From an uncultured Candidatus Poseidoniales archaeon (GTDB lineage: Archaea; Thermoplasmatota; Poseidoniia; Poseidoniales; Poseidoniaceae): a stretch of 64,000 nucleotides of DNA. Below the pieces are notes generated by a model that was not told the origin of the DNA, ran no database searches, and was given only the letters and a program-made list of their open reading frames with translations. Positions 5,201-39,800 of this stretch are shown one piece after another (positions within the stretch are counted from its first letter, which is position 1; the number at the start of each line of letters is the position of its first letter). Where the stretch lies: the NCBI GenBank assembly GCA_902625885.1, contig CACODE010000009.1, positions 1 to 64,000 of the forward strand. The letters are read 5' to 3'. Position numbers and translations under genes: made by a program.

Positions 5201-8200
5201 TCAAAGGCCTCTGAGCCGGTCGAGGTATTGTTGACCGTAATATGCCCACTGCTCCATAGTCCAACCCGCCGGCAGACCACCGGGTGGAAGCGGTGGTCCC
5301 GTAAGTTGGGGAGTGGGTGCATGGTGCACAGGTGCAACCGCAGGAGCGGTGTATGGAGACGCCTGTTGAGCGACTGGAGCGCCGTACAGAGGCGTGTGTT
5401 GAGCGACAGGAGCCGAGTATGGAGCTACCTGTTGAGTGACTGGTACGCCGTATGGAGATACCTGTTGAGCGACTGGAGCGGTGTAGGGAGCAGGTTGTTG
5501 GAACAGTTGCTGTGCACCACCGTACATGGAATTCGCCACCAAATCATGGGCTGGCAGGGTTGCTTGATTCCACTTGAGTTCCTCAGGCTGGCCGCGATTG
5601 TTCCGCATGAACATCAGGCCTAGAAGGGCCGCCACAATGAGCACGCCTAGGACAATCAAAATCACGTCGGTGTTCAAAGCACTGCTGTCGTCTTCTCCGG
5701 AATTGCTCTGAACGCTGTCGGATTGGCAGGTGGCTCGAGAGTCCTCACATGCCGTTTTGTAGTCCGCTTTGAGCGTCATCAGAATCTGCTCCAAAGCGGT
5801 GACATCACCGGTATCATCGGTGGCGATCTGTTCCTCTGTATCTGCGATATCGGCCTCTAGGTCGCTCAAGTACCAAGCGAGCAGTTCATCATCCATTTCG
5901 CCCGGCGAAGGCAACGATTCGGTGGTGAGCCATTTTGTGGTTTCAATGGTCTTGTATTCCTGTCCGCTGACGTCCACTGCACGAACGGCAAGACCGATGT
6001 AATCCATGTTTCGCATGCCGTTGACCCGCGCATAACCGCCGTCACCATAAGAGGAAGGGAGGTTCATTTCTTGGCTCCAACCGGTGATCGAGCGAGACAT
6101 GTCAAGGTCGTATTCCCAAAATCCATCGCAGGTGCCGGAGAGCTCGTTGCAAAGCGACCACGTGACGGTAATCACGGTGTACACCGGCGCACCATCAGTC
6201 AGTGAAAAGTTGGCGGTGGGTGTCTGCGTTTCGTAAGTGTTCATCATGTTGACGTACATGTGTCCCGAACCATCGTCGGTTTTGGCGACATAGAACGGCA
6301 TGGAGTCAAAGACGTTCACCACGATTTCATAGCTGTTCGTGGCGTAGCCGTCCGTGGTCGAGATGGTGACCACCTGAACGCCAACTTCCTCAAATTCAAG
6401 GATAAGGTCACCTGTAAGCAACCTGGCCGAACCTCTTTCGGTGGACTGTGGGTTGTTCACCCAATAGGTGCCCTGTGGGCTGTCGATGTCCGTCAAACGA
6501 CTGTTGAGGTTGATGATTTTCTGCCGGTTCGTCTTCAGATCAATTTCCTCAATGTCCGTCATGTCCAGACGTGGGGCATCGTTGACCGGATTGATGCGAA
6601 TGGTGACGGTCTGATCGGAAAACTGCTCGCCATCACTGGCCCTGAGCGTGACGACGGTTTCGCCGTTCACGTCGTCATCCACGGTTTGGTAGCCTAGCGT
6701 GTTGCCGTTGAGTTCTACGGCGATAACCTCTGGATTTGAATTCTCGATGATTTGAAGCGAAAGCATGGAGGCGTCAACCGCCGCACCGGTATCGTCGGTG
6801 TCAGAGAGGTAGGAACTGAGCAGCAAAAAGCCAGTGCTGCCCTCGTCGACGACTTGTATTGGCAGGCCGTCCCAACGAGGTTGCCCATTCTCAATCACGT
6901 TGAACAAGAGCGTTCCGTATGGGAGTTCTCCATCCTGGGAATAGTCGGCACCGTCATCCACCCTGATTTCGATGCCTTTCTGTCCGAGAGGGCAACCGTT
7001 GTCGTGAGGGAAGCGCACTTCCAATTCTTCACTGGAGGCGTGCCAAGCAACGAAGTTCGGACTGGTGGAGGTGATGAGGAGGTCCGAGAGCGGGGTCTCG
7101 GGGTCGAAGACATGGCCCACCATGCTGACTCTGGTGCTCAGGTCGCACATGACGGTGGGCACCGGACTGGCCGTGATGACCGGTCGTCCGTTAGCGAGTT
7201 CAAACAGTTTCTGCGATGTTGCCCAACCGCTTGTTTGGCCACGGCTGTCCACCGTTCGCGTGCGAATGTCATAATCGCCGGCAGCCATGGCGCCGATTGG
7301 CGTGACGAAATATTCCCGCCCTTCTTGTGCTGAATCCCTGTAGAGCACGTTTTCTCCACCCGAGACAACGCTAGCGTCCCAGATGTTCTGCCCGGTCGGT
7401 GAAACCTCTACCTCAAACGACATGGTATCGATGGTGTCGACATTATCGTTGGCATCGCCCTTGGCAAGAATGGTGACAAAACTGCCGCGCTCAACGACGT
7501 TTGATCCAATCGCTTGAGGCGATTTAACCATGGGCGGTCGGTCGTGGTTTACACCCATCTCGGCCACGTTATTGGTGCCCGCCATGTCGCCAGAAATCCC
7601 CACCAGACGGGCGCCGAAGTTGGTGGACCACACGCTGCTTGGCAAGTTGGAGGTGTCAAACGTGGCCGTGGCTGTCAAGTACGGCGAACCCTGAGCTGAG
7701 TTGAGCGTTGGTATGGCTACCGAATCAATGGCTGTGGAGGTGGCTCCGTTTTTGTAGAAAAACTGGAGCGAGCCCCCATTGCTGTAATCGAGGTCGCCGG
7801 TGTTGCGAACGTCAGCCTGCAACGTGAGCGTGTCGCCCCTGACGTAGGAATTGGTGCCTTGGTTATTTGACACGGACAAGCCTGAAACACCGATGTCCAT
7901 CTTGGGACCCATCGTCGAGTCGATAGCGTGATACACGTGGGGTGAGCTGCCACCCACGGAGACTGAATTGCCGCTCATCAAGGCAGCCACAACGATGGCT
8001 TTGTTGATGCCGCCGGGCACCACAGAGGTGGGCACTGACGTCCATGACTGCGTTGTCTGGGTGGAGGACACGGTCACGCTGTGAAAGGCAGAGCCCGTTC
8101 CTGAGTTTTTGGATTTGTAGGTGTCACCGGCGGTCAACCAGGCCATCCAGCAATTGTAGCCATGCGGGATGCCTGATGAATAGGAGTATCCGGTGCAGTC

Positions 8201-8806
8201 CTTGTCGACAAGAGCGGCGTAGAGTTTCATGTTTGAAGCGGCTGTTCCCGAACCCTTGTACCTGTAGGAGATGCTGATGTCGTAGTTTCCTCCGTTCTGT
8301 GAAATGGCCGCTGACATACCGTAATTGTTCACGGTGCTGTGCATGCCTCCGCCACTCGAGAATTGGTTGTCGTACGTGTCGTAATTTGACGAGGCCCCGG
8401 ATTGCCTTCGGTCGGTTCGGTCGCCGAAGTAAGCATCCGGCGCTCCGCCGGTGGTCCAAGCCCAGTTGTACGGTGCTACGTTGCCTGCACGAGCGGTATT
8501 CGTTGATCCGAACGAAGCCGACATGTACGTAATGTAGACATACTCGTCAGGGTGGTTGACCTTGATGGCGTGGTGCGCATCGGAGCCTCCTCCTTGTTTG
8601 GAACAATGGCCACAGTTGTCCGATGATATGTATTGACCAAACACAACGTGACCCGGGCTGGTCGCCTGTGAGGGGTTCAACACGACCGGCTCTTCTTTAA
8701 GAGCCTCGGTTGGCAATGATTGCCAATGCCCAACCATGCCCGCCATGAGGCTGCCCAGGAAGATGCCGACGATGGCAAAGGCGATGGCTTGCGCTGCGTT
8801 TTTCAT
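5201..8806 (-). CDS. Large membrane-anchored surface protein with CGHC thioredoxin-like N-terminus and cadherin-like domains
   Basis: 1201 aa. Residues 1-30 form a signal peptide. The mature N-terminus has a CGHC motif at residues 65-68 in a region (FGQYISSDNCGHCSK, then DEYVYITYMSASF) resembling Omp28-like thioredoxin-fold domains; CGHC is the active-site sequence of protein disulfide isomerases. Beta-rich Ig/cadherin-like modules follow (IRINPVNDAPRLD near residue 750). One membrane helix (VILIVLGVLIVAALLGLMFM, about 1045-1065) leads to a cytoplasmic tail with five 11-residue PYxAPVAQQ repeats and a terminal PAGWTMEQWAYYGQQYL motif. Predicted topology is outside-in with a C-terminal anchor. 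A role in extracellular disulfide exchange or adhesion is inference. A TATA-like CATATACC sits 25 nt upstream. Confidence 0.8.
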   Translation of the reverse strand: MKNAAQAIAFAIVGIFLGSLMAGMVGHWQSLPTEALKEEPVVLNPSQATSPGHVVFGQYISSDNCGHCSKQGGGSDAHHAIKVNHPDEYVYITYMSASFGSTNTARAGNVAPYNWAWTTGGAPDAYFGDRTDRRQSGASSNYDTYDNQFSSGGGMHSTVNNYGMSAAISQNGGNYDISISYRYKGSGTAASNMKLYAALVDKDCTGYSYSSGIPHGYNCWMAWLTAGDTYKSKNSGTGSAFHSVTVSSTQTTQSWTSVPTSVVPGGINKAIVVAALMSGNSVSVGGSSPHVYHAIDSTMGPKMDIGVSGLSVSNNQGTNSYVRGDTLTLQADVRNTGDLDYSNGGSLQFFYKNGATSTAIDSVAIPTLNSAQGSPYLTATATFDTSNLPSSVWSTNFGARLVGISGDMAGTNNVAEMGVNHDRPPMVKSPQAIGSNVVERGSFVTILAKGDANDNVDTIDTMSFEVEVSPTGQNIWDASVVSGGENVLYRDSAQEGREYFVTPIGAMAAGDYDIRTRTVDSRGQTSGWATSQKLFELANGRPVITASPVPTVMCDLSTRVSMVGHVFDPETPLSDLLITSTSPNFVAWHASSEELEVRFPHDNGCPLGQKGIEIRVDDGADYSQDGELPYGTLLFNVIENGQPRWDGLPIQVVDEGSTGFLLLSSYLSDTDDTGAAVDASMLSLQIIENSNPEVIAVELNGNTLGYQTVDDDVNGETVVTLRASDGEQFSDQTVTIRINPVNDAPRLDMTDIEEIDLKTNRQKIINLNSRLTDIDSPQGTYWVNNPQSTERGSARLLTGDLILEFEEVGVQVVTISTTDGYATNSYEIVVNVFDSMPFYVAKTDDGSGHMYVNMMNTYETQTPTANFSLTDGAPVYTVITVTWSLCNELSGTCDGFWEYDLDMSRSITGWSQEMNLPSSYGDGGYARVNGMRNMDYIGLAVRAVDVSGQEYKTIETTKWLTTESLPSPGEMDDELLAWYLSDLEADIADTEEQIATDDTGDVTALEQILMTLKADYKTACEDSRATCQSDSVQSNSGEDDSSALNTDVILIVLGVLIVAALLGLMFMRNNRGQPEELKWNQATLPAHDLVANSMYGGAQQLFQQPAPYTAPVAQQVSPYGVPVTQQVAPYSAPVAQHTPLYGAPVAQQASPYTAPAVAPVHHAPTPQLTGPPLPPGGLPAGWTMEQWAYYGQQYLDRLRGL
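5345..5495 (-). repeat. 33-bp tandem repeat encoding PYxxPVxQQxx
   Basis: About five in-frame copies of an 11-residue unit (PYTAPVAQQVS, PYGVPVTQQVA, PYSAPVAQHTP, LYGAPVAQQAS, PYTAPAV...) lie in the cytoplasmic tail of the surrounding gene. Copies differ by a few substitutions, so the array is old enough to have diverged. Confidence 0.75.
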
Positions 8807-9725: not shown

Positions 9726-12700
9726 TTACTCAACGACTCGGATTTTCTCACTGCATTGTGGGCACGTAAATCGGAACGGCGGTGAACTGCCGCGTGGAAC
9801 ACCAAGCCTGGCGTCGCATTTCGGACAGTCCACCTTCATGTTGGCATCAAGTCGGCACTCGTTGTAGCCCAACTCCGGCAGTTCTTTCTCATCCTCATCC
9901 TCGGGTGTCGCTTCATCTTCTTCTGACGCCGTGCTCTCGGACCGGCGTGAACGACGGAGAAGTTGGATGGCGACGAGAGCGAGTAACCAGCCAGCGCCCA
10001 TCACGCTCAGGGCGGTGTTTTGACTGACGTTGATGTCCATCGGCAAAGCAAGGCCGTTTGGTGGTAGGGCCGGGCCTTCAATGGTGACCAAAACCTGACG
10101 CATGACCGTCGTTCCATCACCCGCTGAATCGGCGTTGATTTCAACAATCGGCGATGCGGTTCTCGCCGTGTTTGACGTCAAGTTCAGGCTGTACGTGGCA
10201 CGCCCGTAGGGCGCCAGCGTGTAGGCATCGGTCTCGACACCGTCGGCGAGCCGCACCCATGTGGACACCAGCAACCCCGTGTCCTGACCGCTAACGGTGA
10301 GCGAACCGCTGACTTCGGCGTTGCCGAGGTTAAGGACGGTCACCGTGATGACCGAGGAACTGTCAATGCCCAGAGACATGCGTGATTCGCTGAGGTTAAG
10401 CGCAACACGTGCTTCGGTGGGCCAACTGGCTTCAACGGTGTAGAGAACGCTGGACTCAGCGCGCACGTTGCTCCGCACGGCACTGGTGGCACTGACGGTT
10501 GCAACGGCTGTACCGGCGAGGGCGTCATCTTCAACCGTGCACGTCCAAACTTCCGGTGATGAGATGCCGCCGGGTTCCAAAAAGACCGTGAAATTGAGCT
10601 CGCAAGGGTGGTTGGCTACCACGGAAAAAGTGTCGTCAGCCTCGCCGGTGTTCTCAACGGTGAGTGTGCCGTAGACCATTTCCCCGGGTTTGCCAGAGGC
10701 CTTGTCGACTTCCATGTTAATGGCTGCACCGGCTTTCACCGATTCCACGGTGAGGTTCAAACTGTCGCTGACGGCACTGTTCGTGGTTGAGACGACCCGA
10801 AGGGTGTAGACAACGCCGTTATCGGGAGCCCCCGAAGAAACCTCACGCACGGTTATGGAGATCTGCTGCGAGATGCCGGCCTCCAGCGTGAAGGTGGTGG
10901 GCGTGATGTTGAACTCAAACCAGTTACCCTGACTTTGCGTAAGCCATTCAACCTGAAACATTTCAGTGGATGTGCCAAGGTTGGTGACGTCCACACCAAG
11001 CGTGGTGGTGGTGGAAGGCGTTGCGAGAAGACGGTTGTTGATGCTGCTGACCGAAACGGCTTCTCGGTCCACAACGACGACGTCAAAGTCGTAGGCAGTG
11101 CTGATGGTTTCGCCCAGATAACTCAACGATACCGGAGAGGTCCCTGGCGTTGCTCCGGGAGCTGCTGTGAAGGTGAGGACGACAGTGGTTTCCGATGCGC
11201 GGTTGAGTAAAAGCCCTTCTTCGTTAAAGGCGACCGCCACCCCAGTGGGCAAACCTGAAAGCGTTGGTTGCAAGGACAGGTTTGAGGTCCCTGTGTTTCG
11301 TATCATCACCGACATCTGCGCTGACGAACCCGGCGCAACGAGAACCCTGTCCTCGCTGGGTGGAACGATTTGCAAGCCGGCAACTTCGAGAAGGTTGATG
11401 GGCACTTGCAGCGATGAAGTGATGCCGCTGTAGGTTGAAGAGAACGCCTGAAGGAACACGCCGGATTGGTCGGCGTTCCCTTTGGTGTTGACCGTCCACG
11501 TACCTGTTTCGCCGGCCGGAATCGTGATGCCAGAAACGGTGACCAACACGGTGTCAAGGCTTGCTGACTCATCGATGTCAAGGAAAAACATGGCCTCGTC
11601 GCTGCCATGGTTGGTCAAGCGAATTTCGTAATTTTGACCAACGCTTGGGTTGATATCAACGATGGAGAGGGGCCCGCTGAGCGAAAAATTCACGAACTCA
11701 TCAATCTCGATCGAGAAATCAAACGTGTCCAGTACTTGGGTCGTACCGTCGACGTCATGGGTGGCGGTTAATCGAAACGGGCATGTGTCCGAACTGTCTG
11801 AATCTTGAGCAACGTCGATCATCATCTCGGCATCGGCAACAGCGCCAGACGGCAAGCCGAGGCTCTGGGCAGAAACCAGCGAACCGGTGCAGGCGCTGGA
11901 TGCCACACCGGGTGGCGTGGAAAGAGCCCAATCAATGTCGAGCGGGCTGTTTCCGGTGTTGGACACCTGGACCGCTGTCAACGTGCTCTGCCCCGGCAGG
12001 AAGACATCGCTTTGGCGAAGGAAAGCCGTGGTGATGGCCGGCTCCGATTCCACCTCGACCACGATGATGGTTGAGGACGTGATGTTGCCGTTGGTGGAAC
12101 CGACCGTTAATCGGTAGCCGTAGAAATCTGGTGCCGCATTGGACGGGACGGTGATGGAAAGCGTTGCACCGGCACTGCCTCCAGCGGCGATGTTGGCAAG
12201 TTCATCGTCCTGCCATTGGAGGTACCACCCGGCCGGTACGGAGGAGCCCAATCCAAAGGCCGTAGCCGAAGGCGCTTCCCAAGGGTAGTACGACATCCCT
12301 GCGGTTTGGTTGAACACCGTGTCGTCCGCTGCTTGTTGGAGCGACAATTTGACGGCTGCGCTGAGGCTGACCGTGTCGTTGCTACCGACGCAGGTGTCAC
12401 CTGTCGTCGTGGAATAAAGAACGCACGCAGCCAGGTATGACCCGGATAGGGAAGGGTGGCTACCGTCGCTCGTGTAAAGATCGTAGAACAGATTGCCCGA
12501 TGCGGTGGGGTCGTCACCTTCAGCCACAACACCATCATGGACGGTTTTGTAGGCAAGGCCGACGGGGGCAATCCATACGTCGTTTCCTGCACTCGAGATG
12601 TTTTCTGCGTAGCGCGTGTAGCCTTCGGTCAATCGCGCTTGCATGTTTGTGAAATTGTTGTTGAAGCTGTTGAGGCTGTCCCCGCTTCGGTAGCCCCAAG

Positions 12701-13703
12701 TCATGAACAGCACGGTTTCAGCGCCCTCAGAGGCGATTGCATCGCTGAGATTGACCGACGCGTTCTTGCTGTCCTGCCACATGCTGTTGCTTGTTGGAAA
12801 CGTCGGGACTTGGCTTTGGTCCTGCAAAACGACATAATCCCAACCCGAGTTTCGAAGCGTTGTGTTCCATTGATGACCGGCAGTGTCAACGTTTTGCCAG
12901 TGCGCAGGCAATTTCATGCCACCACCGGTGAGCGCGTCAACGGTGGCGTTGTAGCCTGCTGCGGTCGCTACACCCTCAACCAGCGAAGCGAGGTTGTTGG
13001 CGTTGGTGTAGCTGTTGCCCATCATCAAGGAGGAAACCGAGGGTGCTGGAGGGGAGGACGAATTGTTGGTTGATGTACCACCATCACCGGTCTCGCTGCT
13101 GTTTCCGGAGGTGTTGGTGTGGTTGGCCCACCACGATGCAAGGTCCGGTTGGACCTCAACATCCAGGAGGAAGGTGTCCTCAACGGTGCCCAGATTGTGG
13201 GCCAGGAACGACACGTTGGTGCTTGAGCCCGCTGCCATCTTGACCAGCGGTGAGGCAACCGAAGATAACGAGGGGTGATAGGACGGTGCCACGGAGGCCA
13301 AGACGGTCAGCAAAGACGAGACGCCGCTGTCGGGTTCGGTGACATTTACGGTGAAGGACCCGCTATCGGCAACGGTTGCGCCCTCAGCCAATCTTACGAC
13401 GAGGGTGGTGTTTTTCGTCCAGGTCGGGAAAACATTGTCAACGGTGGCATCGAGAGCGGTAACCGTCCAAGGGGAAGCAAGTTGGTCGGTGTCAACAGAG
13501 ACGTTGTACGACTCAATTGATGAGGCGTTGTTCTCTATGGTCAAGGTAATGTTGAGGCTTTGCCCCGGCTCAAGCACAGCGTGCTGAACATCAACGCTCA
13601 ACAAAATTGAGGGGTGGGCGGTGGCGGGCGAGACCAGCGGCGAGAAGGTCATGGCCATGAGGACAAGGACACAACATACCGCACGAACCATCCGGTTGGC
13701 CAT
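9726..13703 (-). CDS. Large surface protein: SGNH-hydrolase domain among NEW3/CARDB-like repeats, TM anchor and cytoplasmic zinc ribbon
   Basis: 1325 aa with an N-terminal signal peptide (VLVLMAMTFSPLVSPATA). At about residues 225-430 a DUF4886-like SGNH hydrolase is inserted: MGNSYTN replaces GDSL block I, YVVLQDQSQ follows, and DGSHPSLSGSYLA supplies the Asp/His pair. Around it are repeated beta-sandwich units with 'NxGxxxDxFxV' wording (for example VENTGEADDTFSVVANHP), like NEW3/COG1470 modules. A membrane helix (about 1225-1250) precedes an acidic linker and a C-terminal zinc ribbon with CPKC (1293-1296) and CPQC (1314-1317). A zinc ribbon on the inner side of a surface hydrolase is unusual and may link surface state to a cytoplasmic partner (inference). 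Substrate unknown; esters or acetylated glycans are plausible. Confidence 0.8.
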   Translation of the reverse strand: MANRMVRAVCCVLVLMAMTFSPLVSPATAHPSILLSVDVQHAVLEPGQSLNITLTIENNASSIESYNVSVDTDQLASPWTVTALDATVDNVFPTWTKNTTLVVRLAEGATVADSGSFTVNVTEPDSGVSSLLTVLASVAPSYHPSLSSVASPLVKMAAGSSTNVSFLAHNLGTVEDTFLLDVEVQPDLASWWANHTNTSGNSSETGDGGTSTNNSSSPPAPSVSSLMMGNSYTNANNLASLVEGVATAAGYNATVDALTGGGMKLPAHWQNVDTAGHQWNTTLRNSGWDYVVLQDQSQVPTFPTSNSMWQDSKNASVNLSDAIASEGAETVLFMTWGYRSGDSLNSFNNNFTNMQARLTEGYTRYAENISSAGNDVWIAPVGLAYKTVHDGVVAEGDDPTASGNLFYDLYTSDGSHPSLSGSYLAACVLYSTTTGDTCVGSNDTVSLSAAVKLSLQQAADDTVFNQTAGMSYYPWEAPSATAFGLGSSVPAGWYLQWQDDELANIAAGGSAGATLSITVPSNAAPDFYGYRLTVGSTNGNITSSTIIVVEVESEPAITTAFLRQSDVFLPGQSTLTAVQVSNTGNSPLDIDWALSTPPGVASSACTGSLVSAQSLGLPSGAVADAEMMIDVAQDSDSSDTCPFRLTATHDVDGTTQVLDTFDFSIEIDEFVNFSLSGPLSIVDINPSVGQNYEIRLTNHGSDEAMFFLDIDESASLDTVLVTVSGITIPAGETGTWTVNTKGNADQSGVFLQAFSSTYSGITSSLQVPINLLEVAGLQIVPPSEDRVLVAPGSSAQMSVMIRNTGTSNLSLQPTLSGLPTGVAVAFNEEGLLLNRASETTVVLTFTAAPGATPGTSPVSLSYLGETISTAYDFDVVVVDREAVSVSSINNRLLATPSTTTTLGVDVTNLGTSTEMFQVEWLTQSQGNWFEFNITPTTFTLEAGISQQISITVREVSSGAPDNGVVYTLRVVSTTNSAVSDSLNLTVESVKAGAAINMEVDKASGKPGEMVYGTLTVENTGEADDTFSVVANHPCELNFTVFLEPGGISSPEVWTCTVEDDALAGTAVATVSATSAVRSNVRAESSVLYTVEASWPTEARVALNLSESRMSLGIDSSSVITVTVLNLGNAEVSGSLTVSGQDTGLLVSTWVRLADGVETDAYTLAPYGRATYSLNLTSNTARTASPIVEINADSAGDGTTVMRQVLVTIEGPALPPNGLALPMDINVSQNTALSVMGAGWLLALVAIQLLRRSRRSESTASEEDEATPEDEDEKELPELGYNECRLDANMKVDCPKCDARLGVPRGSSPPFRFTCPQCSEKIRVVE

Positions 13704-15347: not shown

Positions 15348-18242
15348 TCAATCGCCCCAATCCGAACCGAGTTCGCCCCAATCATCGGACGGACGCAGCG
15401 CATGAACAGGGTCCTTTGTCGATGGTTCTGAGGCGGGTTCCACGGCCTCCGGCGCAACGGTTTCAATTTTCACAGGGTCCAGCTCATACCCCAGTGTGGC
15501 AGGTTCCACGATAGGCAAAGGCGATGCGGGTTCCGCCGGTTGCGGAACGAACACCGGCGCTGCAGTTGGGGGTTCGCTCTGGTAGTTCATCGTCTGGAAA
15601 TCAAGATGGTGCTGTTCAATGGCCTCAACGGGCACGCTGGATAGGCCTTCTCGACGGTTGTACAACGACGCTGCACCGCCAAAGAGAACGAGGAGGCCCA
15701 ACACCCAAGCCCCAACGCCCCACCATGAAGAGAAACTCGCCGTGTTCGGGAAAGCGTCCCGAGCGTTGGCCACCCCGTCCCCGTCATCATCGTATTTTGC
15801 TCCGGGGTCGTTGGGGAAAGCATCGGCAACATCGCCCACGCCATCACCGTCCGTATCAACGGTCTCGGTGGCGTCGAACGGAAACGCATCCGCTTCGTCC
15901 CCCACCCCGTCGTAGTCAGAATCCAAGCATTCCTCGGGGTCGAACGGAAACACATCGCCGTTATCGCCGCACCCATCGCCATCGGTATCCTCCCACTCGT
16001 TTGGGTCCAGTGGAAACAAGTCGCTGTTGTCCCCAACACCCTCGCCGTCGGTATCGTTCCACTCGCTGGCGTCAAAAGGAAAGGCATCGGTGTTGTCGCC
16101 GTAGGAATCGTTGTCCTGGTCAGACCAATCGTTTTCGTCGTATGGGAAAGCATCGCCGTTGTCACCGAAACCGTCGCCGTCGGTGTCGACCCATTCGGTG
16201 GAATCGTTGGGGAACGTGTCGTTGGTGTTGGCGTAGCCGTCACCGTCGCGGTCAGGGCAACCCGGTGGCACGATGGACAACCCGTACTCCAGCAGGCAGG
16301 CATCGCTGTTGTCCCCCGTCCCGTCATCATCAATATCGGTCCATTCCTTTTCATCGAGCGGAAAAGCATCGGTGTTGTCCCCGTACCCGTCCTCGTCCAG
16401 ATCGGTGCACTCTGTGGGATCGAACGGAAACCGGTCGGCATTGTCACCGCAACCGTCGCGGTCCGTATCCTTCCATTCTGTGGAATCCAATGGAAAAGCG
16501 TCTGCTCCATCAAGCCACGTGTCATCGTCCGTATCGTCGTCCCGCTGGTCGGTGCCAGCAGCCACTTCATCAGCGTTTGAGAGCCCATCACCGTCGATAT
16601 CGTCGTCTTCCCCGTCGGCGCACCCGTCCTCGTCGAGATCGTTCGCATGCGGGCTGAGTACACCTTTGGGGCACGCATCGACACCGTCCAACAAGCCGTC
16701 GTTGTCATCATCGTTGTCTTCAACATCGGCACATCCATCGCCATCGTGGTCAATGAGGTTCGGACTTGCGGGGCAGGGGTCAACCTCATCGCTGAGACCG
16801 TCGTTGTCCGTGTCGCGTTGTGAAGCGGCACAGCCCTCTTCGTCAGCCACCTCGTCTGCCGACGTTTCGGGGCACAGGTCTCGGCCGTTGAGAACCCCGT
16901 CAGCATCGTCATCGCGTTGCGACCAACCGCAGCCGGTGCTATCGGCTTGTTCGGAAGCCGGTGTCCACACGCACGTATCGACCGAATCGCTCACGCCATC
17001 ACCGTCCGTATCGGGCTCGCCAACCGCTTCTATGGCGAACCTCGTGATGATGTCGTGCATCACCCTCGTTGGGTGCGCCTTGTCAAAGAACACGTATTCA
17101 TCCACGTTCGCAGCGATGGCGCTGCCGCTGTTACAGATGGGCAACGGGAGCAAGGTGCTTCCACCGCTGCAAGCCGCATCTTGCACGTTGGTCAAACCAA
17201 GTGCTTGCTTGTTGGCCGTGATGTCCCCAAAAATAGTCCACGCATCAACCGTGTAAATCGTGATGCCCAATTCAGCACGCAAACCAACAACGATGGCGGC
17301 AAGCTGGTTGTTGTAATCAATGACTTCGTTGCGGATGGTGGCCTGTTGTGAAGAGGAGCGACTCTGGATTTCGGGCGTGTCTTCCAGCGGCGGCAGGTTC
17401 GGCACCACGAACGTGCGCGCCCCCGCTAGAGCCAACTGCCGAATGTGCGCTTCCATGTTGGTGGCGATGGTGTCGGCGTTGGCCGTTCCGTAGAGGAAAT
17501 CGTTGCCGCCAGCCCACAAACTCACCAGGGCGTTGTTTGGGATGCTCGCTTGGACATTGGCGAGGTAAGCGGTGATTTGCGTGCCGACGTTCGGTATCAG
17601 CAAATAGGCGTAGCCAGAGCCCGTCTGAGCACCACCAAAGGCCCTGTTGGAACCGCTTGAAGCGGCGCCTGAGCCGATGGTGCTGGTGATACCGAAGGCG
17701 TCGTAAAGGCCGCCAAGCCACACCTCACCGTTGGAAAACCTCCCTTGCCAGTACGGCGGCACGTCCGGCGTGTTCAGGATGGAAGCTTTGGCGTTGCCCA
17801 TGTCGGATAGCGAATCACCAAAAGCAAGCAGCGAACCCATGTTGGGGAGAATAACTTGTCTGAACACGATGAATTCCGCATCAACCACCCCCAACAAGGC
17901 GTCTGCATCATCAAACACGTGAACTTCGACAGCATGGAAGTGAGCGCCACGGTAGAAGCGATCAATTCGGAGTTCTACAAGAGTAAAGGTTCCCGTTGCC
18001 GTGAAAAACACCGTGCTGTTGTCGATGAAGCCTTGCTCATCGCTCAGCACCCATTCTGCCCGCAACGGCGTGCTAAACGGCGCGTTTCTTAGACGCAGGT
18101 CGAGCTCAACCGTTTCGTTGGACAGCCAATCATGGCGCGGCACTTCAAGCGTTACCACCGTGGAGCGACCGCTTGCGGCATCGACGGTGTGCACCAGCGG
18201 TGCAAGCACCACCAAGAAGACCAGCCACAGGCAACGTTGCAC
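15348..18242 (-). CDS. Membrane-anchored GDSL (SGNH) hydrolase with thrombospondin type-3 repeats
   Basis: 964 aa from a GTG start, with a signal peptide. Residues ~25-120 are an Ig-like beta domain. The GDSL lipase/esterase domain (about 130-400) has block I LLAFGDSLSD (catalytic Ser ~141), block III SLWAGGNDF and block V DKAHPT (Asp/His ~386), so the active site looks complete. About 18 Asp-rich TSP3-type repeats follow (consensus DAFPxDxxEWxDTDGDGxGDN), predicted to bind many Ca2+ ions and form a stalk. A single membrane helix (VGAWVLGLLVLFGGA) and a cytoplasmic tail ending WGELGSDWGD close the protein. It is probably an outward-facing lipase/esterase held off the membrane by a Ca-stabilised stalk; substrate unknown. 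Confidence 0.88.
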   Translation of the reverse strand: MQRCLWLVFLVVLAPLVHTVDAASGRSTVVTLEVPRHDWLSNETVELDLRLRNAPFSTPLRAEWVLSDEQGFIDNSTVFFTATGTFTLVELRIDRFYRGAHFHAVEVHVFDDADALLGVVDAEFIVFRQVILPNMGSLLAFGDSLSDMGNAKASILNTPDVPPYWQGRFSNGEVWLGGLYDAFGITSTIGSGAASSGSNRAFGGAQTGSGYAYLLIPNVGTQITAYLANVQASIPNNALVSLWAGGNDFLYGTANADTIATNMEAHIRQLALAGARTFVVPNLPPLEDTPEIQSRSSSQQATIRNEVIDYNNQLAAIVVGLRAELGITIYTVDAWTIFGDITANKQALGLTNVQDAACSGGSTLLPLPICNSGSAIAANVDEYVFFDKAHPTRVMHDIITRFAIEAVGEPDTDGDGVSDSVDTCVWTPASEQADSTGCGWSQRDDDADGVLNGRDLCPETSADEVADEEGCAASQRDTDNDGLSDEVDPCPASPNLIDHDGDGCADVEDNDDDNDGLLDGVDACPKGVLSPHANDLDEDGCADGEDDDIDGDGLSNADEVAAGTDQRDDDTDDDTWLDGADAFPLDSTEWKDTDRDGCGDNADRFPFDPTECTDLDEDGYGDNTDAFPLDEKEWTDIDDDGTGDNSDACLLEYGLSIVPPGCPDRDGDGYANTNDTFPNDSTEWVDTDGDGFGDNGDAFPYDENDWSDQDNDSYGDNTDAFPFDASEWNDTDGEGVGDNSDLFPLDPNEWEDTDGDGCGDNGDVFPFDPEECLDSDYDGVGDEADAFPFDATETVDTDGDGVGDVADAFPNDPGAKYDDDGDGVANARDAFPNTASFSSWWGVGAWVLGLLVLFGGAASLYNRREGLSSVPVEAIEQHHLDFQTMNYQSEPPTAAPVFVPQPAEPASPLPIVEPATLGYELDPVKIETVAPEAVEPASEPSTKDPVHALRPSDDWGELGSDWGD
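15740..17015 (-). repeat. Tandem Asp-rich TSP3 repeats (coding, ~75 bp period)
   Basis: In-frame repeats encode about 18 calcium-type units; the right-hand members are irregular (DTDNDGLSDEVDPC), while the left-hand members follow a homogeneous 25-residue DAFPxDxxEW...DGxGDN unit. The regular period produces long Ser/Arg-rich shadow ORFs on both strands. Confidence 0.85.
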
Positions 18243-31275: not shown

Positions 31276-33879
31276 TCATTCGTGTCGAACCCACTCGCCC
31301 TCAGGCGTGACTTCCCAGTACTGAAGTTCCTCTGAGACGTCAACGTACCAGCCTGTTTGCCCTTGTGTTGTCGATGGCGTTGCTTGCATGACACCGACCC
31401 TGCCAGCCTCTTCCGCCAGCGCCGCCATGGATTCCAACGTCAGGCCGTGCCGCTCGTGCAGGGGTGTATCGTCTGCGAGAACATCGGAAGGTGTCTGTGG
31501 CGCCTCCTCTTCCTCATCCTCTTCGTAATCATCAAACGCTTCCTCCACCCAACCCTCGGTGGAGACCTTTGAGGCCTTGCGTGTGAGGGTTACCAACACG
31601 GCGAGAAGCAACACAAGGAGAATCGCAGCCATCGTCATGGCGGTGTTGGTCGAACCAACGGCCCCCCCGAGTAGCACTTCCTCCACATCGTAGAACGACT
31701 GGGCAAGAAGACCGCTCCAACGAACCGTGCAAGAGCGATCGGTGCCACCGTCTTGAACATCAACCTCCCAGGTGCCGTTTGTGACGAATTCGGTCGGACC
31801 TGCGGTGCAGGACACGGTGGTGTTTTCCCGCGGTATGTTGAGCGTGTTGCCGTAGGCATCGGTGGCGAAGGCGTTCAAGAGGACGACGTCGCCCTCGGCG
31901 ATGTTGTCTCGGCTTATGGATGCTTGAATCCTTACGGGCGCTCCTGCCTCAATCGTCAGTGGAATCGTGTGGGTCGCCCCTTCATCCTCCAGAACCAACG
32001 AGTAAGTGCCGACCTTTTTTCCGATAAATTGCCAGTATCCCAAACCCACTTGCGATGTCGTCAATTCGCCCAATGAAGCGTCTAGGGTTGTCGTGACGGA
32101 GGTCGACTCTTCGATGTTACCATGGACATCAACCACCTGAATGAACAGGTCACGGGGTTCACCTGCCTTGACAACGAGGCCGTCGTCAGCATCGGTGGTC
32201 AGACCGTGGGCGGTGCCTGCAACAACGGTCAATCGCACCGTGGCGAAGACACCATCGGCGTTAACGCGAATCTCATGACCTCCGATGTTGGTTGCCGTCC
32301 AGCGCCCATCGTTGAGCAACATCTCCAACGTGATGTCCTCACCATCCAAAGTCCAGTTAAGCGCAACTTCCTCGAGCTGATTGCCGGACGAGTCAAAGAA
32401 TTTCGGATTGAGGTCAAGAGAACCGTCTGCAGGAACTTGGGTGCCTTCGCCATCCAAAGTAATGAATGCGAGCCTCCCCGTCCGCACGTCAAACGATGTT
32501 GAGGCCACAAAGACAGTGCCCGTAGCGCTGTCGTACCAACTCCCCTCAAACCTCCACGATTGCGCTCGCTGGGCTTGTAGCAGCACGTAGCTGTCTTCTT
32601 CAACCAATTCTTCAGAAGTGCCCATCGTCATGTTGATGGAACCATCCACAACCCATCGGTTTCCTTTTACGTCCTCGGCGAAGAGCTCAATGACCACCTG
32701 TTCTCCTGACGTTGGGTTTGCAGGTTCTGTTCTCAGCAGCACGTCAATGGCTCGTCCATGGACGACGTCCACGGAAAGCGAGGTCTCCACCGTGCCGTCA
32801 AAGCCCGACACGGTGGCCGGACCGGTTCCAGAAGGGTTCCAGTACACGCGGAAATCTTCGTCAACCGAGAGACCTCCTGAGGTGGCACTCAGCGAGTGGA
32901 TGGACGGCGAAACCATGCCGACATAACCGTTGACATCTCGCCGTTCAAACACCAGTTCGTACGATTCACCTGCCATGTACTCTGAGGGGCTATCAACCAC
33001 CATGAGGGTCGAGGCGACGGCGTCGCCGGGAATCACCTGAAGCGTGGTGCTTCCAGTGATGTTCCCCGAGGAAACCGTGATTTGCCAGCGACCGGTGTTG
33101 GTGGCAAGGTATTCTCCCTGAGCGTTGAACGATCCGTTTTCGGCGAACCAAGAGAGCGAGCCGACGTTCGACAACGGCATCTCGTAGCCATTGATGTCAA
33201 CCAGTATTGGTGTGATTTTTTCAAGGGTGCCCGCACGAACCAAGAGCGGTTCATCGAACAAGAACGCATGCGGTTGACCTGCTGTGACGGCGATTGTCTC
33301 GGTAGCCTGAAGTTGGTTGAGCCTGGCGCGCACGTGGACTTGTCCAAGCGTTTCAGCGGTCCAGACAGGTTGTCCGTGACCAACGTACACGCCGTCTATG
33401 TCCCAAACGACCGTCTCTGGTGCAGCCATTCGATTGCCGCGACTGTCCAACGCATCAGCCGTTAGTGGGGTGGGTTCGAGCACGCCTACGCTCAATGTCG
33501 TGATTTCCAGAGCTGTAGCGACACCGGCCTCAACGGTGATGTTGTGCCTGTCAACGAGGCCGTTGTGCTCCGCCACCACCTCAACCACCGTGGCGGACCA
33601 CGGGTAGAACAAACCGTCATCCGTGATGGTACCGTTTGACACGGACCAAGAGACATCGCCGGACAACACGTTGTTGACCGGGTCGTAAATGATGGCAGTG
33701 AACTGAACAACCTCGTCAGCCGAAAGGGTGACGGGCGGTGCATCGATAACCACCCTGTCCGCTGTGCCATTCCGTAAAACGACGGTCGGTTCATCAAGCG
33801 CCGCCGGCATGGCCGCTGACCACGTTCCAACGAGGAACAGACCAACGAGGAGCAGGCAGGCCTTCACGGAGGTCAACAC
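31276..33879 (-). CDS. Membrane-anchored surface protein with tandem bacterial Ig-like domains
   Basis: 867 aa. Signal peptide 1-24 (ACLLLVGLFLVGTWSA). Residues ~35-740 contain about seven ~95-residue beta-sandwich units sharing a pattern of 'ADE.V.F.A...D..GN.......W...NG' and ending V.AG.A, for example VTLSADEVVQFTAIIYDP. The same unit fills the C-terminal third of the neighbouring 3040-aa protein. A membrane helix (MTMAAILLVLLLAVLVTL, ~750) leads to an acidic cytoplasmic tail of ~90 residues that ends GWYVDVSEELQYWEVTPEG. The gene begins 9 nt after the stop of the giant gene with GAGGAG before its ATG, so the two form an operon. Adhesion or cell-wall scaffolding is inferred. Confidence 0.8.
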   Translation of the reverse strand: MLTSVKACLLLVGLFLVGTWSAAMPAALDEPTVVLRNGTADRVVIDAPPVTLSADEVVQFTAIIYDPVNNVLSGDVSWSVSNGTITDDGLFYPWSATVVEVVAEHNGLVDRHNITVEAGVATALEITTLSVGVLEPTPLTADALDSRGNRMAAPETVVWDIDGVYVGHGQPVWTAETLGQVHVRARLNQLQATETIAVTAGQPHAFLFDEPLLVRAGTLEKITPILVDINGYEMPLSNVGSLSWFAENGSFNAQGEYLATNTGRWQITVSSGNITGSTTLQVIPGDAVASTLMVVDSPSEYMAGESYELVFERRDVNGYVGMVSPSIHSLSATSGGLSVDEDFRVYWNPSGTGPATVSGFDGTVETSLSVDVVHGRAIDVLLRTEPANPTSGEQVVIELFAEDVKGNRWVVDGSINMTMGTSEELVEEDSYVLLQAQRAQSWRFEGSWYDSATGTVFVASTSFDVRTGRLAFITLDGEGTQVPADGSLDLNPKFFDSSGNQLEEVALNWTLDGEDITLEMLLNDGRWTATNIGGHEIRVNADGVFATVRLTVVAGTAHGLTTDADDGLVVKAGEPRDLFIQVVDVHGNIEESTSVTTTLDASLGELTTSQVGLGYWQFIGKKVGTYSLVLEDEGATHTIPLTIEAGAPVRIQASISRDNIAEGDVVLLNAFATDAYGNTLNIPRENTTVSCTAGPTEFVTNGTWEVDVQDGGTDRSCTVRWSGLLAQSFYDVEEVLLGGAVGSTNTAMTMAAILLVLLLAVLVTLTRKASKVSTEGWVEEAFDDYEEDEEEEAPQTPSDVLADDTPLHERHGLTLESMAALAEEAGRVGVMQATPSTTQGQTGWYVDVSEELQYWEVTPEGEWVRHE

Positions 33880-33888
33880 ATCATCTCC

Positions 33889-36800
33889 TCATTCAGAATA
33901 TTCCTGCCATTCTTCTTCTCCGGCCATTCTGTACCACCAGTTGCCGTCTTCGTCTTCCCACCATTCGGTGCCGTCCTCGTCAACGCTGGTTTCGATTTCC
34001 TCCTCAGGCTCCTCGGCCACAGGTGCCTCTTCGGCTGGCGGAGGACCGGATGGACCGGGTGCCGGGCCTGTTGGGCCGGGTGCCGGGCCCGTGGGCCCTT
34101 TCGGACGGGGTTCGTCCTCGTCATCATCGTCATCATCGTCGTCCCAGTCGTCGTCGCGACCGTTTCTCATGAACATCACCAGAAGACCAAGAAGCACCGC
34201 GCCGACAACGCCAAGCAAACCAGCTCCGACGTAGTAAAGCGTACCGCCCGCTTCAAAGAACCCGGCGAGGTTGCCTTCAACGACGATCTCAAGGTTCACA
34301 CGCTCCGCTCCAACACTGACCGTGATGGTTTGGGGACCGTCATCAAGGGTCGTGATGGTCCAGTTTTCTGACGAACTCATCATGGATGTTCCTCGGCCTG
34401 TCATTTCCACCTGCACGCTACCCGGAACGGGAATTTCGTTGTCAAAGGCATCAAAGGCTCGAATGAAAACACCGAGACTCTCGAGCTGCTCCAAGGTTGT
34501 GGTTGACAAGTTCACCTCAAGGCGGGCAACCGTGCTTTGCGCAAACACTTCGATGGTGGTCGTGGACACGGCGCCTCCCACGGTGTACTGGAGGGTATGA
34601 ACGCCGGCCACTTCCGCTGCGTAGATGTACGTTCCCTCCGAGGTGGTAACAATGCTGAGTGTTGGAACCGGAGCACCGTCTTCAGTCCACTCAACATCCT
34701 GTGGGAACTCGTTGCCATCGGCGTCGGTGCCGGTGACCTGAATGTCCACGTCATCCCCTGCCGTGGGCGAGGTCTGGGAAAGAGCGGCGGAAACCGTAAC
34801 CGCCTCGCCGTGCAGAACAGTGACTGTTATGCTGTCACTGATGTTGAAACCGTTTTCGCTTACGGCCCACGCCTCAATGCGCCACTCTCCAACTGTCGAT
34901 GCTTCCCACCGCATGTTGTCCAGAAGCAACGACGTGGTGATGTCTGTGGTCTCACCGGTTGCCAGATGAACTTCGTGCCATGTTAGCCTGTCCGAGGAAA
35001 TCGGGTTGTTGTCGGCATCGAACAGTTGTGAGGAAAAGTCGATGGCATAATCTGAGGTCAACTCAATGACCGCACCGGTTGAACGGTCCGCATCGTTGGC
35101 CACGCCCTCGATGGTGACGCTGTTCAGCACACCGTTGTCGACGGTAATGTTCAACGCAACGCTCAACGATGTGTTGGCGTCGGTGTAAGTTGCCACCAGC
35201 ATGTAGGGCTCGGTAGAGGCATAGTAAGGTGTAAACGTCGTGGCGTCGCCTGAAAGAACCTCAAGGAAGTTCGAAGCATCGCTGATGGTGGGGTGTTCCA
35301 TCGACCAGTTTGTTTCCGGAACGGCCCACTGATTGCCTTTGGCGTCTATGGCGAAGATTTTCGCTTCAAGTGTTTCGTCGGCCGTGATTTCGAGGCTCTG
35401 CCACGTTCGCACCTCATCGTCCACCATGAGTCGAAGGGATTGCGTGATACCTCTGTCAACCGCAATGACGACTTGAGTCAGTTCGGTTTCGTATCTGGCT
35501 TCGAGAATCTTAGAGCCCGTTTTGACCGGGTCCCATATCGCTGGGGCCCCCGGCGTCAACTGCCCGTCGGAGGTCTTCGTCCAGTTGTCTGCTGGCAAAA
35601 TCACCGACAGGCGGTTGCCTCTTACATCGACTCGAGTGGTGTTGATGTAGACACGGTCATCGGCCGTCACCGCCGTGGAGGAGACGTTCAATTCCAGGTA
35701 GTCAATGGCTCCATGCCCGACCGATATCTGGAGTTCAGCCGTAGCGCCTGAGATTGAACTGAGGTTCAGCCACCAAGTGCCGACATGGTCAGGGAAGTAT
35801 TGCTGATTGATTTCAGAATAATTTCCGTTGGTTGTGGTCCACGTCAAATCGCCTGCATCGCTTATGTCCAGAGCGTTACCAAACTGATCGAAAAGGTCGA
35901 TCGTGATGTCGCACCAAACACCGGCCGGAACCGTTCCTTCACACCCGCCGAGCTCAAAGTATGAGGGAGCCCCAGGCAGCACGGTAATGTCAACGACAAC
36001 CTGTTGGCCGCTCGCTGGATGCGCCACGGTGATGGTGTGGTCGCCAGCGGCGTATGGGAAGAACGTGGTACCGAACACGCTGCCGTTTGAGGGCGTGATG
36101 AGGATGCTTTCACCAGGCTTGAAATTGCCGTGTTGATCGGCCATTTGCGCCGTGATGGTGAGGTTCTCGTCAGCCGTGATGGTGGCCGTCAACGGGGTAA
36201 CAACGAGGTCGACGGCTGCACCGGGCGTGACCGTGATGTTTTGTGTCCCGCACACCAAACCAAAGCATGCCATCACCGAGGCGATACCGGCTGTGCTTGG
36301 GGTGAACAGACCGTTGCTGCCGATGCTTCCTGAAGAGGCGTACCAAGTGACTGGCGTGGATTGGACCATCTGCAAATGGTCGTAAGCAACGGCATTGAAG
36401 TTCACGGCTGTGTCGGCGTCCGTGGTGAGCGAACCGCTCGGACTGATGGACATGGTCGTGATGTTGGTGGTGTTGAACATGACCTTCGGCCGGAAATCAA
36501 CGTTGTTTGCGGTGCCGGAATAAAACGAAGCGTGGGCGTGTCCGGTGTTTGGTGTAGCGATGATGATCCATGCCTGATGGTTGCTGATGGTCATGCCGGG
36601 TGTGCTCAAATCAAACCACAGCCACCCTGTCGTGTCGACGTTGACCACGGTCGTTGATACGGCAGACCCGTAATCGCTGCCGGCTTGCATCCCGGGTGAG
36701 CCCCAAAGCACGCCACCGGTCGTTCCGTTCCATGTTGCAGAGGCTTGGCTCCAATTCTGGTTCAACACAGGATGAACACTGAAGGAGACGGAGGTTGCGC

Positions 36801-39800
36801 CCTGCACGGATGCCCAATCTTCAACGTACAGTCCGAGCGATGCAGAGTGAACGACTTGGTACGGGGCAAACGGAATTTGAGAGGCATCCAGGCCGATGTT
36901 AATTCGGCATTCGTCGACATAAAGCGTCCCGCAATAGGTTCCTGCCCGAATAACAGAGTTGCCAGCAAAGTTGGTGTTCGGGTATTCACTGTAAAGCGTG
37001 GTGTCCTGTATGTTGGTGTGGCCGAAGGCGGCGACTTCGCTGCCGGTTTGGAACATGTAAGTGTAGGTGTAGTCGTTGTTGTAGGTGTGGTCGGGGTCGC
37101 CGATAGCAAAACTCCAACGTGAAGAGGATGGCCCTGGTATGGACTGGTTAACACCCTGAACCCACCAAGAGAAGGTCTGACCCTCACTGAGGTTGGTGGA
37201 GAACCGGAACGTGGTGTTGGTGATCTCGTCGTCTTCCCAAGATTTGAACTTGAACACGCCCGTTTCGTTGGCGACGGTGACGATGTAGCCGGTCGCACCG
37301 CTGACGGGCGACCATGTCAACACGGGTTGGGACGGTGGCGTCAACAGCCCGTTGCTCTCGGCGTACAGGACCTGTCCGTCCGCAGGCGAATTCAAAACTG
37401 GCTGGGCGGGAGGCAAGATGCCGTTGACGTTGTCAACATAATCCAAAACAAGGTGCGGGTGGTAGGTAGCGTCGTTGTATTCCGACGAATAGAACGTGTG
37501 AGATGAACCGCCGCTACCAACTTTCGCAAGCATGAACGTCATGGTGGTGTTGCCGTTGGCAATGTTGGACTGGGCTAGCCCGGTGAGGTCCCATTCAATC
37601 CATCCAACCGGCTGAGCGAGCGTGATGGTTGAGCGAGTGATCTCCGTTCCGGAGCACGTTGGGGCGGTCAGCCAAATGACACTGGACTCGGTAAAGCCGC
37701 TGCAGGGATAGGCTGCAACGGTGGTGGACGATGTCCCGCCAACGCCGATTTGGTACATTCGCAGCACCATCTGCGTCGGCGTCATGGCCGCAGGCCAGGG
37801 TATGTCGGTCAGGTCAAATTCCATCAGCACTCGACTTTCGCCCGTGCCCAAGGCGTTCACGCCCAACGACATCGTCGCCGAACTGCCTTTGTTAACGGTC
37901 GCACCCGAATCAATCTCAACATCAGGAACCGACGGCAAGAGCCCTGTTTCATCGAAGATGGAACCCCGAGAAAGGTTCAGCGTGTGGTTGCCGTTGCCGT
38001 CATCGCTTCCTTGGTCGACGGGATTTCGATATTCGTGGGTGACCGACCATCTGCCGATTCGATCGCCCTGGTCGGCGCGGATTCGCCAGTACTGCCAGAT
38101 GTCACCCTTGTACATGTTTGACGCATGGATGGTGTTGTTGAGCAGATCGATGCTTGTGTTGCCCACCAAGCCTGCAGCGACCTCATCAGAGGTGTAACAT
38201 ATCGTGTTTTCATCCAAAAAGAAGGGGTCAGGTCCTCCACATGAAACGTAGCGTGTGTAGTTGTTGTAGGTAAGGTTCCAGGTGAATTCGGTTGAGTTCA
38301 TGCCGGAAGGGCGCGGCTGTGAAAGGTTCCACAACGTAGCCCCGTCGGCTGGGAGCAGACCAGTGGGGGCTGCAGGTGTCCACGCCGCCGTTGTTCTGTA
38401 GGTGAGGTTAAGTCGAGGACGAACGTCAATGTTTGATGATTCACTGGAGGCAAACTGGACGCGGCCGTTCACGCCGTTTTCCAGTTCAACAGGGAACAAA
38501 AACACATCCAACTCGGCAACGTTGGCGTCGAGAGCGTGCTGTACATAGGCCGTGACGTTGAACGAAAAGACTCCGGTGCCGTTGACCCATTGGGCGTCGT
38601 TGATCGGCACATCGATGTCGTCCTCCGAAAAGGAACCCTGCGAGGCCCACGACGAGGTGTTTCCTGCAGGGTAAGCATATACGGAAGATTCAGACCACGC
38701 CGAAACGATTTCTGATACGGCGATTTTGGTCGATTGGTAGGCTCCAACGGCCGTCAAATCCAGTGTGGCGTTGACAACCTCGTACGTTCCGGGCAGCGGA
38801 AGACCGCTAAAGTCCATGTTGATCAACGAAGCAGAACGCAAGTTGGCGTTGTTGGTGGATACCGAGCTGCGCCCGACGTAGAGCATGGTTGATGAGCCCT
38901 GATTGGCGTAAATGTTCCCGGTGTCGATGAAAGTGTCCGCCGATACGCTCGGGTAAGCGAGCGAGGGAACGATGGCACCGTCCTGAATGGACACCTTGGC
39001 GTAGGTTGAATTGATTTCCTCACCGACATCGTTGGGAAGGTAAAACACCGTTGAGTTGCTCCTTGGCCCGAGCATGCCGTTGTTCATCGGCTGCACCATC
39101 CAACGAATGTCTTGAGCGAAGGTCAGTGCTTGAGGTGGCGTGAAGGTGTTGTTTGCGACATCAAAGGCTGCAGGAGTCAGGCGAGAGTCGTAGGTATAGA
39201 GTCCGGACATGTCGTTGCTAGCATCGGCCTGAATGAACACGCGCCAGCCCGTGGCCGTCGTGGAACCGCTGTATGTCCATGTGAACGTCGGTGTCGAATC
39301 GGCTTGGAGTGCATGCGATGTGGCGTCCCAGACAATGGCCCCGTTGCTCGGTCCCGTGTTGACGCCGCTCACGCTGGGTGTGGCGACCGTGCCGTCTTCC
39401 CACGTCAAGTTCAGGTAAGGACGCTCGCTTGCACTTCCTTCGGTCGAGGTGAACGTGATAACATCCGTCGTCTGAGACGACGTGTAAATCATCAACGAAA
39501 TATGGTTCTGTCCTGCACCGATAGCGGCTTGAACCGATTCCGTGACGTCGAAATCCATCCATCCGTCTGAAACGCTGTCAACAAGATCGACGTAGGTACC
39601 GATATCGGTGCCGATGGCTCTGCCACCTCGCTGAGCCCAGTTGTTGGTACCGTCGTAGGTTGTGGCGTTCGCAGCGGTGGTCCAAGGTTGAAGAACGGGT
39701 CGGACGGCGACCGGTTCGTCTTCTACCGAACCGTATTCAGCGAACAGGCTCAATTTTGCACCGGTGACACGGGCACCAGATGGTTGAGGCACTTCGCTAA

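Follow-up and report, generated by a model that had tools for sequence, protein, structure and literature searches.

Why should one archaeal protein chain carry a hydrolase outside the cell and a zinc ribbon inside it? This question is raised by an open reading frame (ORF) at 9726-13703 on the minus strand of contig CACODE010000009.1, within a stretch of 64,000 nucleotides (the window) from a genome of Candidatus Poseidoniales (Marine Group II archaea) whose own assembly is about 70% complete. These archaea, which have been described as more abundant than any other planktonic archaea in the surface ocean, have no cultured representatives (PMC6461757). Among hits that carry a name, Poseidonia sp. 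and Euryarchaeota UBA486 come nearest. The intact ORF encodes a product of 1325 residues that had been described from the DNA letters as an exported SGNH hydrolase joined across the membrane to a zinc ribbon, with signalling, ribosome/secretion coupling or anchoring as possible roles (the original prediction). Comparison of the product, here called the stalk protein, with its orthologues indicates that the description as an SGNH hydrolase is too narrow: the ribbon is the most strictly kept part of the protein, and the SGNH domain is one of several outer parts that vary from genus to genus. We propose a Poseidoniales surface stalk with a swappable outer cassette and a generic cytosolic ribbon for docking or self-association, a reading to which we assign a probability of about 0.55.

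Anatomy and conservation of the stalk protein

The whole gene and its parts, in their order from the N to the C terminus, are as follows.

9726-13703, minus strand: whole gene of the stalk protein, a single-pass exported surface protein of 1325 residues (ORF, orthologues in 58 of 58 family genomes, synteny)
13617-13703, minus strand: signal peptide, residues 1-29, end approximate (hydropathy peak at 6-24)
13119-13616, minus strand: N-terminal immunoglobulin (Ig)-like region, residues 30-195, constant across orthologues (mean pairwise identity 0.44; ratio of nonsynonymous to synonymous change, pN/pS, 0.098)
13041-13118, minus strand: linker rich in N, S, T and G, residues 196-221, where cassettes vary by genus (orthologue comparison)
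12270-13040, minus strand: SGNH cassette of the DUF4886 type, residues 222-478, with Ser231 (GNSYT), QDQSQ at 294-298, and Asp413 and His416 (DGSHPS) (Pfam, PDB, AlphaFold2 and Foldseek, invariant residues)
10020-12236, minus strand: stalk of Ig-like (NEW3/CARDB/HYDIN-like) beta-sandwich domains, residues 490-1228 (AlphaFold2, Foldseek, invariant Cys)
9948-10019, minus strand: membrane helix, about residues 1229-1252, followed by RRSRR (hydropathy, charge bias, AlphaFold2)
9864-9947, minus strand: acidic, disordered cytosolic linker, residues 1253-1280 (predicted local distance difference test score, pLDDT, of the AlphaFold2 model; lowest conservation, 0.21)
9729-9863, minus strand: C-terminal MJ0042-like zinc ribbon core, residues 1281-1325, with CxxC at 9816-9827 and 9753-9764 (conservation, AlphaFold2, TIGR02098 matches)

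The ribbon motif, CPKC-x17-CPQC at residues 1293-1317, ends eight residues short of the stop. All four of its Cys residues are invariant in 43 orthologues, and the pattern was found in each of the 49 orthologues whose C terminus is present, always C-terminal and 7-15 residues from the end. With a mean pairwise identity of 0.57, residues 1281-1325 form the most conserved 45-residue segment with good occupancy, compared with 0.44 in the SGNH domain as well as in the N-terminal Ig-like region, 0.29 in the stalk and 0.21 in the acidic linker. The pN/pS values, pooled over 11 close pairs some of which have a member in common, were also lowest in the ribbon (0.087), followed by the N-terminal Ig-like region (0.098), the cassette region (0.139), the stalk (0.160) and the helix plus linker (0.272). 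The MJ0042-type zinc finger model TIGR02098 is matched by 41 of 43 tails at E<=0.1 (best 4.6e-6) and, like Zn_ribbon_4 (PF13717), shares with them CxxC-x17-CxxC with four conserved Cys. The tails differ from both families in an additional conserved PPFRF, which precedes the second CxxC, and in their position as the last part of an exported protein, behind its helix; moreover, the tail encoded in the window stays below the TIGR02098 cut-off (18.0 against 20.9 bits). In the AlphaFold2 model, which is metal-free, the ribbon consists of two short hairpins with a pLDDT of about 80. The conserved Cys residues and the modelled hairpins bear out the C-terminal ribbon of the original prediction, and the ribbon is likely to bind zinc.

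Hydropathy revealed only two membrane-type segments in the product, residues 6-24 and 1231-1249, in agreement with the signal peptide and the single membrane helix that had been predicted. The ribbon end is assigned to the inside of the cell because two sequence biases point the same way. Thus, Lys and Arg are more frequent just behind the helix than just ahead of it in 49 of 49 orthologues (209 against 16 in sum, over 15 residues on either side), and N-glycosylation sequons in these orthologues number 1590 in 57,674 ectodomain residues and 14 in 4,011 tail residues. The arrangement of the Cys residues fits the same topology, since the stalk pairs 605/641 and 1034/1055, which are invariant among orthologues and probably form disulfides, are as expected outside the cell, and the CxxC pairs of the tail are as expected of a zinc site inside it. 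The cytoplasmic placement of the ribbon in the original prediction therefore stands as far as sequence statistics go, both biases running counter to a Cys-rich end outside.

AlphaFold2 modelled the last 831 residues (mean pLDDT 85) as a row of beta-sandwiches and one helix, after which a disordered linker leads to a small ribbon; pLDDT is below 50 over model residues 759-780, which correspond to the acidic cytosolic linker. The NEW3-like repeats noticed earlier were right in kind, the stalk being modelled as a row of Ig-like beta-sandwiches; against the threshold of 24.4 bits for NEW3/NPCBM_assoc (PF10633), the window protein reaches 21.9 bits and the orthologues L033 and L038 reach 35.7 and 36.5 bits, respectively. 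The N-terminal Ig-like region (residues 11-188) resembles choice-of-anchor T (NF041740) but falls below its cut-off (41.1 against 70 bits) and is thus not a member. An attempt to name the stalk by structure failed, as all Foldseek matches were multi-Ig proteins of a generic kind (axoneme HYDIN-type, complement, A2M) and gave no hint of a function.

An orthologue of the stalk protein is present in 58 of 58 Ca. Poseidoniaceae genomes, the gene being single copy in its own incomplete genome, and full-profile orthologues, ribbon included, occur in 4 of the 11 sampled genera of the sister family Thalassarchaeaceae. The parts that stay constant among orthologues are the N-terminal Ig domains, the stalk, the helix and the ribbon. 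Nothing else in 293 genomes of the phylum matches the stalk profile to its end, the matches found being to Ig repeats and stopping short, and a search with the tail profile gave weak matches in a few distant Thermoplasmatota. In one Thermoplasmatota genome (G165:C14), Ig-like repeats occur in an extremely long open frame, which spans 25,796 residues. The stalk locus is syntenic: a GCD14/Trm61-type methyltransferase gene is the convergent neighbour in every locus long enough to tell, most longer loci have, past this neighbour, a second surface gene and one for a LonB-like protease, and most have an Asp-tRNA synthetase gene on the opposite side of the stalk gene (inverted in genus g7). The second surface gene is missing at several sister-family loci. 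No RNA elements were found around the stalk protein gene.

Exchange of the outer cassette

The SGNH domain is real. It matches DUF4886 (PF16227) over residues 272-442 with 36.4 bits, above the gathering threshold of 26.7, finds 4s1p among the PDB sequences (E=8e-14) and yields an AlphaFold2 model of mean pLDDT 82 whose best PDB fold matches, 4i8i and 4s1p, are both DUF4886 proteins (Foldseek E 7e-12; TM-scores of 0.74 and 0.84 by target length). The catalytic-type residues Ser231, Asp413 and His416 are invariant in 24 of 24 homologous domains, which also share an invariant GG at alignment positions 36-37 as the block II Gly (assigned by sequence position, not from inspected coordinates) and an invariant QDQSQ instead of the classical Asn of block III. 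The predicted SGNH domain with a variant GNSYT block and DGSHPS was thus confirmed, and the label variant is correct because block III reads Q-D-Q-S-Q and not the classical Asn. Gln also replaces this Asn in the DUF4886 relative 4s1p (QEMS), and SASA members of the SGNH clan likewise lack the block III Asn (PMC9487903). The cassette shares with the DUF4886 family a score above the cut-off, the Ser, Asp and His residues and the fold of 4i8i and 4s1p; it differs from the family in general in that it is inserted into an archaeal Ig-like stalk that is anchored in the membrane and has a ribbon in the cytosol. No DUF4886 member had a known function according to a 2022 review (PMC9487903). The cassette is presumably catalytically active, and for a predicted DUF4886-type SGNH esterase the likely substrates would be acylated glycans, or esters of another kind, in the vicinity of the cell.

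This cassette occurs in the scaffold of genera g1, g3, g4, g8, g9 and g11 of the Poseidoniaceae and g19 of the sister family. In the remaining genera its place in the linker, behind the second N-terminal Ig domain, is taken by nothing more than (GNNT)n or (GNGT)n sequence, by an array of ~37-residue units (L033), by an InlB-B-like domain (L036, PF18998) or by other domains without a name. On a quick scaffold tree with long branches, from which we do not claim a direction of change, the presence of SGNH changes about three times (the starred branches of the tree force two), and the ribbon is never lost. SGNH domains 51-57% identical to that of the window, and a further one 43-44% identical, are found on different proteins in genera whose scaffold lacks SGNH: in L047 and L049 the domain is accompanied by TSP3-like repeats and a helix, and the tail is rich in Trp (GYSWLKYNNLQWYR...EW), L050 has it with another tail, and L048 runs off its contig. 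The two arrangements, scaffold cassette and separate protein, were seen together in no genome of the orthologue survey.

Cassette and tail are therefore independent of each other in evolution, and a dedicated coupling of SGNH domain and ribbon is rejected as a general rule, since each occurs without the other. The SGNH domain is an optional cassette in an N-G-T-rich linker, and the ribbon and the hydrolase are evolutionarily uncoupled, because the ribbon stays in orthologues without SGNH and SGNH occurs elsewhere with non-zinc tails.

Two side observations concern the cassettes. The array of L033 (4628-8881, residues about 235-575) comprises about seven 37-residue repeats (SLAIDSNDNLHVTYLDYTN..NLEYMTYDGSSWSTPV), is seen in one species only and possibly forms a beta-propeller. 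One gene beyond the stalk gene, at 15348-18242 on the minus strand, the window encodes another exported SGNH enzyme, which belongs to a different family (Lipase_GDSL PF00657, E=2.7e-21); it carries TSP3 repeats and a helix and ends in an acidic tail that has no ribbon.

Ribbons and other tails on further surface proteins

The search for other proteins with a membrane helix and a C-terminal ribbon, suggested together with the original prediction, had a positive outcome both in a complete relative (G011), where hydropathy alone defined 78 single-pass candidates, and in the own genome, which was screened by DNA pattern only. Ribbon-type tails end 5 of the 78 candidates of G011, one of them without a called signal peptide, and a chance origin of these tails is excluded because 78 shuffled tails give only 0.04. 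Under other filters, the proteins found in G011 were the stalk orthologue, one of PKD type, one of CARDB type with two ribbons, one of 685 residues with an RPFRF ribbon and one of 743 residues for which no signal peptide was called. In all, 5-6 single-pass membrane proteins of G011 have a ribbon tail. The own genome encodes a subtilase (L105, G000:C25:4000-14000) that has CARDB and Ig domains and a single helix and ends in a cytosolic zinc ribbon. It also encodes small membrane proteins (L065, L066 and L058) with a cytosolic-type CPxC...CPxC ribbon at the N terminus, ahead of one or more helices.

Most exported single-pass proteins of G011 lack a ribbon and bear other tails instead. The motif PPLPxxGLPxGWTMEQWxxYGxxYL is found in 11 genes of G011 and in the neighbouring gene at 5201-8806 (minus strand) of the window, where it lies at the C-terminal end of exported, membrane-anchored proteins and gives the impression of a common docking motif. 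The products of 31276-33879 and 33889-43011 (minus strand) end in cytosolic tails that are rich in Trp and WW-like (e.g. DEDGTEWWEDEDGNWWYRMAGEEEWQEYSE); L047 and L049 have tails of the same type.

Possible roles of the ribbon

According to our proposal, a Sec-type signal peptide would export the stalk protein, whose Ig-like rod would stand on the membrane and present a cassette inserted in a flexible, probably glycosylated N-terminal linker; here the cassette would be a DUF4886-type SGNH esterase. One helix would cross the membrane, and a short acidic linker would bear the zinc ribbon in the cytosol, where the ribbon, as a generic protein-protein module, would most likely self-associate or dock to a conserved cytosolic partner. 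The stalk proteins could thereby be clustered or held at particular places, whatever the cassette outside. Such a generic docking, oligomerisation or anchoring role is favoured over signalling from SGNH to ribbon because the free choice of cassette outside goes together with the strictest constraint inside. A mere stop-transfer plug is disfavoured because the ribbon is the most conserved 45-residue segment and has the lowest pN/pS.

A model for such a role is offered by two eukaryotic membrane proteins, TMEM106B, whose cytosolic zinc-binding tail dimerises the protein and makes specific protein contacts (PMC12894719), and lunapark, which dimerises via its zinc finger region (PMC6739345). They are work-alikes only, that is, analogues and not homologues, since the profile of the tail matched nothing significantly among the PDB sequences, TMEM106B giving E=0.41; besides, TMEM106B contributes two Cys per chain across its dimer, whereas the four Cys of the stalk protein lie within one chain. 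Several points weigh against our proposal, among them the analogical nature of this comparison, the single-pass census, which relies on hydropathy alone, and assemblies that are incompletely annotated, that of the own genome being about 70% complete. Furthermore, zinc ribbons also bind nucleic acids, which leaves room for a regulatory role.

Of the other readings, the first takes the protein as a structural part of the wall: a rod of the S-layer or glycocalyx kind, decorated by SGNH among other domains, with the ribbon as no more than a folded cytosolic plug or retention tag. Its presence in every genome of the family, the long Ig rods, the many sequons and a weak S-layer-type match at residues 794-971 agree with this, but the match (21.6 bits) lies far under the cut-off of 110, a plug would not have to be conserved more than every other segment, and the protein is absent from 7 of the 11 sampled sister-family genera, so that we regard a wall component as unlikely.

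The signalling reading, by which SGNH or another cassette would sense a glycan or ester and the ribbon would relay this to a cytosolic regulator or nucleic acid, could call on the ribbon being the most constrained part and on MJ0042-type and RNA-binding zinc-ribbon families among its weak matches. However, the same ribbon goes with very different cassettes or none and the same SGNH with other tails, a conformational signal would find no rigid path through the stretch from helix to ribbon, which is acidic, disordered and little conserved, and no adjacent regulator gene is kept, which makes signalling decidedly improbable. Hence, of the single chain that was predicted to link an outside hydrolase to an inside ribbon, the anatomy, topology and ribbon hold, and the dedicated link does not: the ribbon is kept in SGNH-less orthologues and on the subtilase and others, and SGNH is found on proteins with other tails. 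The anchoring role also suggested at that time survives in a more generic form, as anchoring, docking or oligomerisation fits better than signalling.

Biogenesis or quality control, in which the ribbon would be a C-terminal tag recognised by the ribosome, by the secretion machinery or by a membrane protease (LonB, encoded nearby, being an example), seems very doubtful. The LonB-like gene is near in most longer loci, including several sister-family loci without the other surface gene, and the ribbon is C-terminal in every orthologue; yet most exported single-pass proteins of G011 use other tails, and the neighbourhood is housekeeping in character and not necessarily functional.

Docking or self-association by the ribbon might be part of a wider scheme. 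In this tentative extension, which we think possible but improbable, outer domains would be interchangeable and a few recurring cytosolic modules (the zinc ribbon, the PPLPxxGLPxGWTMEQWxxYGxxYL motif and the Trp-rich WW-like tails) would each be read by their own receptor to sort, cluster or position the protein that bears them. If true, the zinc-ribbon class headed by the stalk protein would represent a hitherto undescribed prokaryotic way to organise the surface from inside. Each part of the stalk protein is already known in kind. Searches by surface terms of Marine Group II genome and expression papers (PMC6461757, PMC6864105, PMC6336850, PMC9723583), whose coverage was incomplete, gave no surface proteins or tails of this build, and no account of zinc-ribbon surface proteins in Poseidoniales was found in the similarly incomplete literature covered. 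A single-copy protein that is present in every genome of one family and most constrained in a 45-residue cytosolic ribbon provides a concrete handle, and the fixed tail and stalk with swapped outer cassettes show how Poseidoniales cells may re-equip their surface.

Finally, participation in an archaellum or adhesion apparatus, for which the broad pattern agrees with the published archaellum distribution (all Poseidoniaceae, some Thalassarchaeaceae only; PMC6461757), has a negligible chance and was rejected, as the sister-family genera show no association (both in 2, protein only in 2, archaellin only in 2, neither in 5; Fisher p=0.58). Archaellin (PF01917) is found in 72 of 116 Poseidoniales genomes and FlaD/E (PF04659) in 0 of 116; PF04659 is useless as an archaellum marker because it has no match in the order, and the Poseidoniales archaellum may use a divergent FlaD/E or do without it.

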